A stretch of 57,142 nt of DNA from Pengzhenrongella frigida (lineage in GTDB: Bacteria > Actinomycetota > Actinomycetes > Actinomycetales > Cellulomonadaceae), in contig NZ_SDWW01000001.1 in NCBI RefSeq assembly GCF_004168625.1, positions 133,501 to 190,642 of the forward strand, read 5' to 3'. Each line of letters starts with the position of its first letter. Positions within the stretch are counted from its first letter, which is position 1. The notes under the pieces were generated by a model. The model was not told the origin of the DNA and made no database searches. It saw nothing but the letters and a program-made list of their open reading frames with translations. This document shows positions 14,205 through 27,208 of the stretch, piece after piece. The position numbers were made by a program, and so were the translations under genes.

Positions 14205-14235
14205 GCACGACCTGTCGATCTCGGCGCACATCCTG
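14205..14235 (+). promoter_or_regulatory. Candidate LytTR binding site, copy 1
   Basis: Direct repeats GCACGACCTG and GCACATCCTG with a 21-bp period, spaced by TCGATCTCGGC. LytTR-family regulators bind paired direct repeats about two helical turns apart. The whole 31 bp matches the copy at 27062-27092 at 28 positions. It lies 130 bases before the LytTR gene and between the divergent transcripts. Confidence 0.6.
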
Positions 14236-14364
14236 CACTCTCGGGCCGGACGGGGCGAAACCCGGCCGGCGCGGACGGTCCGGGGTGGCGGTGCCCGCGA
14301 CGCCGTACCGTACTTCTCGGCACCGTGCTACCTCGGCCCGGCGCCGAGATCCAAGGAAGGTAAA

Positions 14365-15087
14365 GTGCCCCACGTGATCCGCGTCGGCGTCGTCGAGGAC
14401 GACCCGGCGGCGACAGCGCAGATCCTGGCGTACCTGCACCGGTTCGAGACCGAGCACGACGTGACGTTCGCGGTGCAGACCTACCCCGACGGCCGCGACG
14501 TCGTCGAGCGGTACCAGTCGGGGTTCGACATCATCTTCCTCGACGTCGAGATGCCGTACATCGACGGGTTCGAAGCCGCCCGCCACATCCGCACCCTCGA
14601 CAGCGAGGTCGTGCTCGTCTTCATCACGAACATGGCGCAGTACGCCATCAAGGGCTACCAGGTCGACGCGCTGAGCTACCTGCTCAAGCCGGTGCCGTAC
14701 TTCGCGTTCTCCCAGGAGCTCCGGCGCTCGATCGACAAGACCCGCAGCACGCAGGGCGACTGGATCATGCTCTCGGTCGGGTCAGGGATGGCCCGGGTCT
14801 ACCTCAGCGACATCACCTACATCGAGAGCATCCGCCACAAGATCATCGTGCACGGGGTCGATCGCACGTATGTCCCGACCGGGACGCTGAAGGCCTTCGA
14901 GTCGCAGCTCGCGGACAAGGGCTTCTTCCGCAGCAACAACTGCTACCTGGTCAACCTTCGTCACGTCACCGGCGTGGACGCCACCAGCTGCGTCATGATC
15001 GACGGGGCCGACCTCCAGGTCAGTCGTCCGCGCCGTCGGGCGTTCCTGCAGGCCCTGGCCGACCACGTGGGTGGTCGCACGCCGTGA
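14365..15087 (+). CDS. LytTR-family response regulator (AgrA/VirR-like)
   Basis: A 240-residue response regulator. Residues about 4-125 are a receiver domain with acidic pair Glu11/Asp12/Asp13, phosphoacceptor Asp60 (DIIFLDVEMPYIDG) and Lys in YLLKPV. Residues about 135-235 are a LytTR DNA-binding domain: VYLSDITYIESIRHKIIVHG, then FFRSNNCYLVNLRHVTGV. The GTG at 14365 follows AAGGAAGG; a second in-frame GTG three codons later is possible. The stop overlaps the GTG of the histidine kinase, so they form a standard two-component pair. A candidate binding site lies upstream of this gene and another upstream of the GH2 gene. Confidence 0.93.
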   Translation: MPHVIRVGVVEDDPAATAQILAYLHRFETEHDVTFAVQTYPDGRDVVERYQSGFDIIFLDVEMPYIDGFEAARHIRTLDSEVVLVFITNMAQYAIKGYQVDALSYLLKPVPYFAFSQELRRSIDKTRSTQGDWIMLSVGSGMARVYLSDITYIESIRHKIIVHGVDRTYVPTGTLKAFESQLADKGFFRSNNCYLVNLRHVTGVDATSCVMIDGADLQVSRPRRRAFLQALADHVGGRTP

Positions 15088-24315: not shown

Positions 24316-24329
24316 TCGAGGTGCTCGCG

Positions 24330-26750
24330 TCAGTCCGCCAGCGGCCCCGCGTAGTTCAGGCCGAAGCCGAACTTCCAGTCGCTGCCCGCGGCGTCGACGT
24401 AGGTCGTCATGTCTTCCCCGACGCCCTCGTCCTGCGCCTCGACGGCGTCCATGTCGACCGGGAAACCGATCGGCAGGCGCCCCTGGGGCTCGTGCAGACC
24501 CGCGGCGACGGTGAGCGTCGCGAGATCGCTGACGCCGAACCCGACCAGCACGGCGTCGGACGCGGCCTCGAACTCGGCCGGGACGACCGGGTTGTTGGCC
24601 TTGACGACCGTGATCATCGGGATGTCCTTGCCGGACGCCTCGACTGCGGCGACCGCACGCTCGAAGGCGTGGATGTCCGCCTCGTTCGAGATGCGCGAGG
24701 TGGCGCCGAAGTAGGAGCGGTTCTCCTTGGTGCCGTCCGCGAGGACGTCGCCACCGATCGAGGTCGTGCGCACGTTCGCGCCGTCAGCGGTGTACGGAGC
24801 CCACTGCAGCGAGAGGGGGTACCACGCCTTCGTCTCGGCGTCCTGGCCGGAGGCGGAGAACGGGTTGCCGTTGTTCGGCGAGCGCAGACCGACGAGCACG
24901 AGGTCGACGTCGGTCAGGTCCGGAGCCGTCTCCGAGACGACCTTGCCCTCGGCGTCGAGCTCGACGGTGTCGGTCAGGACGGTGCCGAAGATCTGCTCCG
25001 CGGCCTCGACGCTCAGCGACGCTCCCTCGGAGTAGACCGCAGGGCCGAACAGGCCGTCCATGCCCGTGTCGTACGTGTGCGGGATGTAGACGGTCTTGTC
25101 CGACCAGTCGCCCTCGGCCGCCTCGGCGACCGTGCCGTCGTTCTTGACCATCACGACGGAGTTGAGCTGGGCGTTGAAGCCCGCCTCGACGTTCTCGGCC
25201 GATCCGACGGTCGCGAGCGACTCCTCGAGCTCGACGTACGGAGCGTCGAACAGGCCGGGCGCGAAGGACATCGTGAGGATGCGGGCGCCGGACTCGGCCC
25301 ACCGCGCGTCGGCGTCGACGTCGACCGTGCCGGCCTCGAACTCGGCCTGCCAGGCGTCGTAGGCCTGGAGGATGAACTCGGCGCTGTTGACGCCGCCGAA
25401 CATGTCGACGCCGTTCTTCAGGACCTTGACGTAGCGCTCGACGGGGGTCAGACCCTCGGCGCCCCACGCGGTGCCGAGGAAGGCGCCCTCGTCGGTGATG
25501 CCGGTCATGACGGCCCAGTCGGTGACGATCGCACCCTTGAAGCCGATGTCGTTGCGGATGTAGCTCATGAGCTCGGTGTTGTACGCGGTGCCCATGACCT
25601 CGCCACCGGCGACGGGGTTGCCGTCCTTGTCGAGGCTGATCGAGTACGACGTCATCATCGCGAGCGAGTCCGTCGCGGCAGCGAACACGGACGCGTGGTC
25701 GTCGAGACCCTCACCCGTGATCGCGTACTTGCCCACGTTGGTGTGCGACTCGCGGCCACCCTCGCCCGCACCGTCGCCCGGTGCGTGCTTGATGGTCGTG
25801 GGGACGCTGTTCTCGCCCCAGCCGACGAGGGTGCCGTCCTCGTCGTAGGTGCCCTGGAAGCCCTTGACGTAGGCGGCGGCCAGCTCGGCGGCCAGCTCCG
25901 GGTCCTCCCCGAGCGTGCCGGCGACGCGCAGCCAGCGAGGCTCGGTCGCGAGGTCGATCTGCGGGCTCAGGGCGTTGGAGATGCCCAGCGCGCGGTACTC
26001 GTCGGACACGACGCGGCCGAAGTCCTCGACCGTCGCCGCGTCGAACGTCGCGGCGAGGCCCAGCACGGACGGCCAGAGCGAGACGCCCGCACCGGTCTCG
26101 ATGTAGGAGGAGCCGGACTGCGCCTCGGAGCGGGGGTCCGAGCTGAAGTTCGCCGGGACGTAGGGCTCGTCGGCCGTGGCGATCGACTCGGTGTACGCCT
26201 GTACCGCGTTGACCCACGTGACGTTCTCGGTCACGTCGGACCCGCCGGCGTTGAGCACGTTGCGCAGCTTGTCCTCGGACAGGTAGGTCTGCTGGGCGTC
26301 GGTGAGGCCGTCGGCAGGGGAGCGCTCGTGCGAGCTGAACAGCATCAGCCCCGAGATCTGCTCGACGGTCAGCTGGGACGCGAGGTCGGCGGCGCGATCG
26401 CTCGCGCCGACCCGCCAGTCCTCCCAGACGTCGAGCTCGCCGTTCGCGTTCATGTCCTTGAAGGCGAAGGTCGAACCATCGACCTCCTCCTCGAGGAGGG
26501 TGATCTTGCTGTCGACGCCGTAGGACAGCGTCGCGCCGTCACCGGGGTTGTCGACGACCATAAAGGTCGTCCCACCGTCCGTGACCTCGCGCTCGACGTA
26601 GGCGTCCGGTGTGGTCGTCTCGGGATCCGACGGGCCCGCCGTGCAACCCGCAAGGGTGATGGCGGTGAGACCGGCGAAAACCGCTACTCCAGTGGCGGGC
26701 AGGCGCCTCATCGGCCTGCTCCCCGGTGACTTCATCTGGCCAAGCTTCAT
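24330..26750 (-). CDS. GH3-family exported lipoprotein
   Basis: An 806-residue exported enzyme. The lipobox LAGC (Cys36) ends the signal peptide. Residues 99-110 (KDMNANGELDVWED) look like an EF-hand calcium loop. The GH3 barrel follows: LSPQIDLATEPRWLRVAGTLGEDP, KHAPGDGAGEGGRESH and nucleophile candidate Asp411 in GFKGAIVTDWAVM. A sandwich domain (VVMVKNDGTVAEAAEGDWSDKTVYIPH onward) closes the protein, with no fibronectin-III domain visible. The ATG follows GGAGAGAG. It is the first gene of the minus-strand operon and is divergent from the GH2 gene. The substrate is unknown; the family includes beta-glucosidases and related enzymes. Confidence 0.92.
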   Translation of the reverse strand: MKLGQMKSPGSRPMRRLPATGVAVFAGLTAITLAGCTAGPSDPETTTPDAYVEREVTDGGTTFMVVDNPGDGATLSYGVDSKITLLEEEVDGSTFAFKDMNANGELDVWEDWRVGASDRAADLASQLTVEQISGLMLFSSHERSPADGLTDAQQTYLSEDKLRNVLNAGGSDVTENVTWVNAVQAYTESIATADEPYVPANFSSDPRSEAQSGSSYIETGAGVSLWPSVLGLAATFDAATVEDFGRVVSDEYRALGISNALSPQIDLATEPRWLRVAGTLGEDPELAAELAAAYVKGFQGTYDEDGTLVGWGENSVPTTIKHAPGDGAGEGGRESHTNVGKYAITGEGLDDHASVFAAATDSLAMMTSYSISLDKDGNPVAGGEVMGTAYNTELMSYIRNDIGFKGAIVTDWAVMTGITDEGAFLGTAWGAEGLTPVERYVKVLKNGVDMFGGVNSAEFILQAYDAWQAEFEAGTVDVDADARWAESGARILTMSFAPGLFDAPYVELEESLATVGSAENVEAGFNAQLNSVVMVKNDGTVAEAAEGDWSDKTVYIPHTYDTGMDGLFGPAVYSEGASLSVEAAEQIFGTVLTDTVELDAEGKVVSETAPDLTDVDLVLVGLRSPNNGNPFSASGQDAETKAWYPLSLQWAPYTADGANVRTTSIGGDVLADGTKENRSYFGATSRISNEADIHAFERAVAAVEASGKDIPMITVVKANNPVVPAEFEAASDAVLVGFGVSDLATLTVAAGLHEPQGRLPIGFPVDMDAVEAQDEGVGEDMTTYVDAAGSDWKFGFGLNYAGPLAD

Positions 26751-27208
26751 CGCTCTCTCCTCATTGAGTGTTGCGGGCCGAGACCGCCTCCGGACGACGG
26801 TCGTCCGAGGTGCCATCACCTGTCCGCTCAGCCGTTCGATCGTGCCGTCACGACCCTGATCAACCGGGTCGCCCGCCCCGGCTCGGCCGTGGTGCGCGCC
26901 CCTGTCCGGGGTGTCTACGTAGTGCTAGGTCGGAGCCTGCGACAGCGCGTCCGGCCGAGGCGCTGGGGGTGCTCAGGCACATCAGCGGCTGGCTGGACGG
27001 GTTCTGTCACGGGCGCCGGTGATGACTCAAGCAGCCGTTCGAAGACCCGTGATCGGGCGCGGCACAACCTGTCGATCTGGGCGCACAACCTGCTGGTGCT
27101 GCCCCGGTGACGCGTCGCCGTTATGGTGTCGTCGACGTCTGAGCCCGCACGACGCACCCCGCTCCGGCAGGAGCGCGTCGTCAGCGGTGCCGACCCTGAG
27201 AGGCGCGC
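26751..27208. other. 458-base divergent intergenic region between GH3 and GH2 genes
   Basis: No gene was recognised. It holds an 8-bp palindrome CTACGTAG (26915-26922), the candidate LytTR site (27062-27092) and a TATGGT -10 candidate for the GH2 gene at 27122-27127. The -35 position is poor, which would fit a promoter that needs an activator. A short GCTCC/GGAGC hairpin lies in the GH2 leader near 27160. Confidence 0.6.
27062..27092 (+). promoter_or_regulatory. Candidate LytTR binding site, copy 2
   Basis: Two exact GCACAACCTG repeats with a 21-bp period, separated by TCGATCTGGGC. It ends 30 bases before the TATGGT -10 candidate and 116 bases before the GH2 start codon. Orientation and distance to the start codon are close to those of the copy upstream of the LytTR gene. 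Confidence 0.65.

Follow-up and report, generated by a model that had tools for sequence, protein, structure and literature searches.

Two 31-bp direct repeats in a 57,142-nucleotide stretch of the Pengzhenrongella frigida genome (contig NZ_SDWW01000001.1, positions 133,501 to 190,642; hereafter the window) are predicted from sequence to be the operators of the adjacent LytTR two-component system, through which the genes on the minus strand would be driven. A probability of about 0.8 was assigned to this reading; that the repeats are docking sites of the LytTR response regulator (RR) is by itself very probable on sequence grounds. A preliminary description of this DNA had proposed a LytTR operator, a single regulator and a regulon including surface glycosidases, all of which were retained. 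Its targets were not, the minus-strand genes being favoured. The sites and the genes next to them are as follows.

14205..14235, functional reading on the minus strand: predicted operator site 1, CAGGATGTGC-N11-CAGGTCGTGC, upstream of GT2-GLF

27062..27092, functional reading on the minus strand: predicted operator site 2, CAGGTTGTGC-N11-CAGGTTGTGC, upstream of the GH3 run

14365..15087, plus strand: LytTR response regulator (RR; receiver and LytTR domains), start picked by eye from the upstream AAGGAAGG

15084..16406, plus strand: GHKL-type sensor histidine kinase (HK) with hydrophobic N-terminal segments

13017..14084, minus strand: GT2 glycosyltransferase, predicted target of site 1, start picked by eye

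11791..12945, minus strand: UDP-galactopyranose mutase (GLF), predicted target of site 1

24330..26750, minus strand: GH3 lipoprotein, first gene after site 2, start picked by eye

27209..31117, plus strand: GH2 beta-galactosidase of the LacZ type, target in the preliminary description, probably not under site 2

Direct reading of the window located the repeats at the positions given above, as previously described, with 28 of 31 bases identical overall and 10 of 11 in the spacer. The plus-strand distances were also confirmed, at 129 bases to the RR GTG at 14365 and 116 bases to the GH2 ATG at 27209, both starts being picked by eye. Omitted from that description were the divergent minus-strand neighbours, GT2 (start ∼14084, 120 bases from site 1) and the GH3 lipoprotein (start ∼26750, 311 bases from site 2). 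Since both sites lie between divergent genes, each has two candidate targets, of which only the plus-strand one had been weighed. Site 1 separates the minus-strand GT2-GLF pair from the plus-strand RR-HK pair; site 2 separates a minus-strand run of GH3 lipoprotein, small putative lipoprotein, permuted GH3, GH3, GtrA and GT2 from the plus-strand GH2.

The P. frigida genome (4,316,912 bases in 126 contigs, 99.94% complete) was scanned with the exact pattern GCACNNCCTG-N11-GCACNNCCTG, which was present at exactly two places (reversed control 0). The fuller 31-mer, allowing up to 3 mismatches, returned the same two places and no others. Many random hits would, according to the preliminary description, have spoken against a genuine site; with both of these scans random matches were not in excess. 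A looser pattern with one mismatch gave two extra places against two for the reversed control, and these extra places are background. Within the window, up to 3 mismatches gave 7 matches against 1.68 expected, a number reached by 0 of 100 shuffles, and sites 1 and 2 were the only perfect matches among the 7. Scans for sigma-70 and terminator patterns and against Rfam returned nothing usable. The repeats have the form of a LytTR operator, two direct repeats of ∼9-10 bp spaced 11-13 bp apart (PMC6193735). The LytTR half-site consensus is [TA][AC][CA]GTTN[AG][TG]; CAGGTTGTG retains the GTT core and deviates at three positions.

Among 242 loci with a relative of the window RR, the best 80 were used, and the window proteins were compared to them by tblastn; several of these loci end early at contig boundaries. 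The neighbourhood RR-HK-GH3-GH3-GtrA-GT2-GLF recurs in Actinobacteria (Cellulomonas, Actinotalea, Sanguibacter, Demequina and Cellulosimicrobium), in Firmicutes and in a few other lineages, with some genes not found in some loci. The repeats are conserved in relatives having the RR and GH3 genes; a relative with RR and GH2 side by side was not encountered. Sites in relatives were obtained from pattern scans and fetched flanking DNA, and a score matrix was applied to the window and 51 actinobacterial loci (938,136 bases). This gave 45 distinct sites of at least 24 bits, 40 of which reached at least 30 bits. Of these 40, 39 precede a module gene (20 GH3 lipoprotein, 8 GH3a, 5 GH3b, 5 GtrA and 1 GT2) that is no more than 700 bp away and is encoded by the strand not favoured in the preliminary description; because 21 of the sites scored later had served to train the matrix and related genomes recur, this is a rule and not 39 independent events. 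The 40th site (35.4 bits; L135 7279-7309, Demequina sediminis) is unlinked. It lies ∼145 bp before an open reading frame (ORF) at 7412-9385 that by eye resembles a gene for a secreted esterase with S-layer-homology-like repeats, possibly an extra regulon member.

It is unlikely that a single bound dimer serves two divergent promoters at each site. A diverging query gene is also present at 6 of the 40 sites (four GLF, one GH2 and one RR), as such an arrangement would have it; 34 of the 40 are without a query gene within 700 bp on the other side, some of them lying near the end of a locus and other genes there being unannotated. Control of the plus-strand genes, the RR by site 1 and GH2 by site 2, as first proposed, is less probable still. 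The distances to the two starts are similar (129 and 116 bases), repeat-mediated autoregulation has been reported for LytTR regulatory systems (PMC6193735), and in one relative (L020) a weak site of 20.7 bits lies upstream of the RR and faces it. Against this stand the orientation of 39 of 40 sites and the spacing to a -10-like box described below. In addition, L020 was alone among 19 actinobacterial relatives in having a site above 9.0 bits within 500 bp upstream of the RR; the other 18 had none. In six more RR-bearing loci (L149, L151, L153-L156) no site above 18 bits lies upstream of the RR among the matches listed. No GH2 homologue was detected beside the site at E 1e-8 in the two closest relatives, Actinotalea K2 (L129, with L161 beyond) and G117 (L149, which reaches only 3.7 kb on the GH2 side). 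Autoregulation of the RR via site 1 and control of GH2 via site 2 are thus not supported.

The distant loci (L022-L082; 61 loci, mostly Firmicutes) were analyzed separately. In 50 distant loci, direct repeats of exact 9-mers between the kinase and GH3 peaked at a period of 21, with 26 sequence windows (overlapping ones counted separately) and no more than 6 at each other period from 15 to 29. The pattern CAGNTYRTGC-N11-CAGNTYRTGC with up to 2 mismatches gave 34 matches in 26 of the 61 loci, while 20 permuted motifs gave 0-3 each. Of the 34, 32 are on the RR strand and the other two are within the kinase gene. Five were removed before the -10 count (L032 and L075, antisense inside HK; an overlapping register in L032; L042 4241; L072 5035), leaving 29 sites. 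In 28 of these 29, TGNTANNNT is found at offset 26 or 27 past the second repeat, with one occurrence elsewhere in the following 120 nt. In Gemmiger formicilis (L043) three tandem GH3b-like copies are present, two of which have their own site (15164 and 18444) with an identical spacer.

In the same register, 43 actinobacterial sites have G at 29 in 34 cases, T at 31 in 31 and T at 36 in 35. This list was compiled without L020 9793, L135 7279 and the second weak sites of L155 and L156 (19.7 bits), and includes four sites below 30 bits (L010, L013, L014 and L146). The -10-like element was looked at on the gene-sense side only. The corresponding boxes in the window are predicted as follows.

14168..14176, minus strand: extended -10-like box TGT-TCTCCT of the predicted GT2-GLF promoter, 28 nt past the second repeat

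27025..27033, minus strand: extended -10-like box TGC-TTGAGT of the predicted GH3-run promoter, 28 nt past the second repeat

At the level of sequence both repeats stand upstream of a promoter-like element. The window boxes share the TG and, within the hexamer, the outer T; for TGT-TCTCCT, only TG and the two outer T fit the family register. Together, the orientation of the sites and the -10-like box at a set spacing indicate that both window promoters run leftward.

Co-occurrence of site and regulator was assessed in a sample of 200 genomes of the family, with an RR homologue counted at E ≤ 1e-40. The RR was present in 52 genomes and the exact motif in 29. The motif was found in 24/52 RR-bearing and 5/148 RR-less genomes (p 3e-12), and in 20/52 and 5/148 (p 2e-9) when four doubtful genomes were left out by eye (G066, G186, G202 and G218), their sole matches having the look of coding-sequence coincidences. 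The reversed control was not associated with the RR (13/52 and 55/148). In RR-less genomes, the matches of G051, G163 and one of the two G141 places have no module genes within 14 kb. Two genomes (G092 and G122) carry GH3 clusters ∼2 Mb from the RR, each with two sites, and the retention of sites at this distance argues for action in trans. Neither the RR nor the exact motif is present in four congeners (G001-G004), a distribution suggestive of acquisition by transfer or of repeated loss; a scan of these four with 1 mismatch gave 17 matches against 34 for the reversed control.

Another transcription factor could in principle control the same module from these sites, as LytTR binding here is predicted from sequence. 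Such a factor is very improbable, given that LytTR systems are reported to use direct repeats 11-13 bp apart before a promoter (PMC6193735), that a single LytTR protein was found in the genome and that the sites are associated with the RR even where unlinked to it.

Several observations weigh against the repeats being operators of the LytTR system for the minus-strand genes. No exact match is present in 28 of the 52 RR-bearing family genomes, and L003 and L004 lack a counterpart of site 1 between RR and GLF. The reversed control occurs in 68/200 family genomes, exceeding the motif (29), so that raw motif presence is uninformative and it is the RR association and position that count. In 16 distant whole genomes, up to 1 mismatch gave 24 matches in 10 genomes, while the reversed control gave 15; known module sites account for all 7 perfect matches and for 6 of the 17 with one mismatch. 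The box is weaker in Actinobacteria, with the full TGNTNNNNT at offset 24-31 in 19/43 sites. The CAGNTYRTGC pattern was composed after sight of the repeats in the same distant loci. With this, the overlap of training and scored sites, the discovery of most loci via the RR and the many close relatives, the counts are not independent. At the position of AgrA N201, 80 aligned RRs have K in 42, N in 25, S in 12 and R in 1, and at that of S202, G in 53 and C in 27. Chance similarity with no regulatory role might be read from the greater number of GC-rich family genomes with the reversed pattern than with the motif, but is scarcely credible in view of the set spacing to the -10 box in distant loci, the 0-3 matches of permuted motifs against 34, and the RR association.

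The RR at 14365-15087 is the one LytTR-domain protein found in the genome. Its receiver and LytTR domains exceed the curated cut-offs (57.7 bits against 30.2 and 57.2 bits against 22.6, respectively), and residues 130-206 match AgrA structures (3bs1, E 2e-4). An alignment of 80 RRs, from which one of 81 was dropped for its short length, shows no variation at H155, R186, S217 and R218; H155 and R218 are presumably equivalent to AgrA H169 and R233. The DNA-contact residues of AgrA include R198, N201 and S202 (PMC4227749), of which the R198 position is R in 80/80 aligned RRs.

In its DNA logic the system follows LytTR operators already known. In Staphylococcus aureus, AgrA, also a LytTR-domain RR, binds as a dimer to two direct repeats just before the promoters at its P2/P3 sites (PMC4227749). 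The system described here differs in its half-site, CAGGTTGTGC, in its predicted targets, which are surface GH3, GtrA and GT2 genes, in the unconserved N201 and S202 positions, and in an RR that scores 32.1 bits against the NCBIfam AgrA model NF046049, far below the cut-off of 400. HdrRM and BrsRM of Streptococcus mutans and relatives share direct repeats 11-13 bp apart, often located 10 bp upstream of the -35 region, with an extended -10 at hdrRM (PMC6193735). Those systems are repeat-autoregulated pairs of a regulator and a membrane inhibitor, whereas here an RR is paired with a kinase and its own promoter is usually without a site. Taking the box as -12 to -7, the window repeats fall at roughly -74 to -44, which is close to the arrangements described for AgrA (PMC4227749) and for LytTR systems (PMC6193735).

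The sites, their conservation, orientation and spacing and their co-occurrence with the RR are read from the DNA itself. In the mechanism proposed, phosphorylated RR would bind both half-sites as a dimer, ∼44 to 74 bases upstream of the predicted transcription start, and would recruit RNA polymerase to the promoter with the extended -10-like box, activation being assumed rather than repression. From site 1, minus-strand transcription would proceed into GT2-GLF; from site 2, it would proceed into GH3-lipoprotein-GH3-GH3-GtrA-GT2, with operon extent predicted and starts placed, by prediction, near 14161 and 27018 on the minus strand. A membrane sensor would thereby couple a putative signal to surface glycosidases and enzymes of lipid-linked sugars. 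Gaps of ∼100-160 bases are present within the GH3 run, for which one transcript is assumed. The genes of this run after the GH3 lipoprotein are as follows.

23766..24311 (ORF bounds), minus strand: small putative lipoprotein, true start probably ∼24176

20642..23725, minus strand: circularly permuted GH3 with a hydrophobic segment near both ends

18104..20545, minus strand: GH3 without N-terminal hydrophobic segment

17433..18080, minus strand: GtrA-type membrane protein (26.8 bits, cut-off 26.1)

16399..17436, minus strand: GT2 glycosyltransferase, last gene of the run

The small putative lipoprotein is present in many actinobacterial copies of the module. The best NCBIfam model for the GH3 at 18104..20545 is exo-alpha-1,6-L-arabinopyranosidase (705 bits, cut-off 1300). 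The motifs SDW, SDF and TDW in the three GH3 proteins are taken by us to be GH3 nucleophile-like motifs. GLF makes UDP-galactofuranose. No sugar importer was detected among the window proteins scanned, other genes in the relatives' loci being unannotated. GtrA with GT2 is an arrangement by which lipid-linked sugars are made and flipped (PMC13390465, PMC7117936). We lean towards remodelling of the cell's own surface glycan as the role of the module, over polysaccharide use, which was assumed for the Butyrivibrio loci (PMC2914790). A tentative picture, which may well prove wrong, is of a self-contained signalling and glycan module of Actinobacteria and Firmicutes, in which a single conserved operator-promoter cassette would let the kinase and LytTR RR switch on GH3 enzymes (one permuted and membrane-bound), GtrA, GT2 and the synthesis of UDP-galactofuranose, and a galactofuranose-containing surface glycan of the cell itself would be remodelled rather than food digested.

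Linkage of LytTR regulators to membrane GH3 enzymes was reported in 2010 in one genome, that of Butyrivibrio proteoclasticus B316, where each of three LytTR RRs lies near a secreted GH3 carrying a membrane helix at its C terminus (PMC2914790). These loci, likened by description, are probably the same module; the available part of that account covers linkage, with no operator, promoter or cross-phylum regulon. A Roseburia survey includes, in the portion available, one polysaccharide locus with a LytTR regulator and without GH3 (PMC5320581). No description of the operator or regulon was found in the open-access papers searched, among which subscription papers are mostly absent. The present analysis yields a testable operator and target list for a widespread two-component system for which no assigned function was found, and it revises the direction of control first proposed. 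The cis-element is recognisable in Firmicutes (Paenibacillus, Faecalibacterium and Gemmiger relatives), Cellulomonadaceae and Demequina, and mapping of the regulon by sequence gives access to the role of the GH3/GtrA/GT2/GLF set, testable in tractable hosts.

Two Cellulomonas loci (L005, C. iranensis; L006, C. sp. B6) have two RR copies, ∼60% and 44% identical to the window RR, with one kinase near the module. No site above threshold was found in either locus, and the operator has possibly diverged there. In the permuted GH3 (20642-23725) the domain order is C-terminal, Fn3-like, N-terminal, with hydrophobic segments at residues 46-73 and 973-998. Between its catalytic and small-chain domains the GH2 (27209-31117) has a Laminin_G_3 (concanavalin-like) insert. 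A further lipoprotein-like ORF of the window (8620-9975, plus strand) has a sequence that, in our judgement, resembles CotH kinases.

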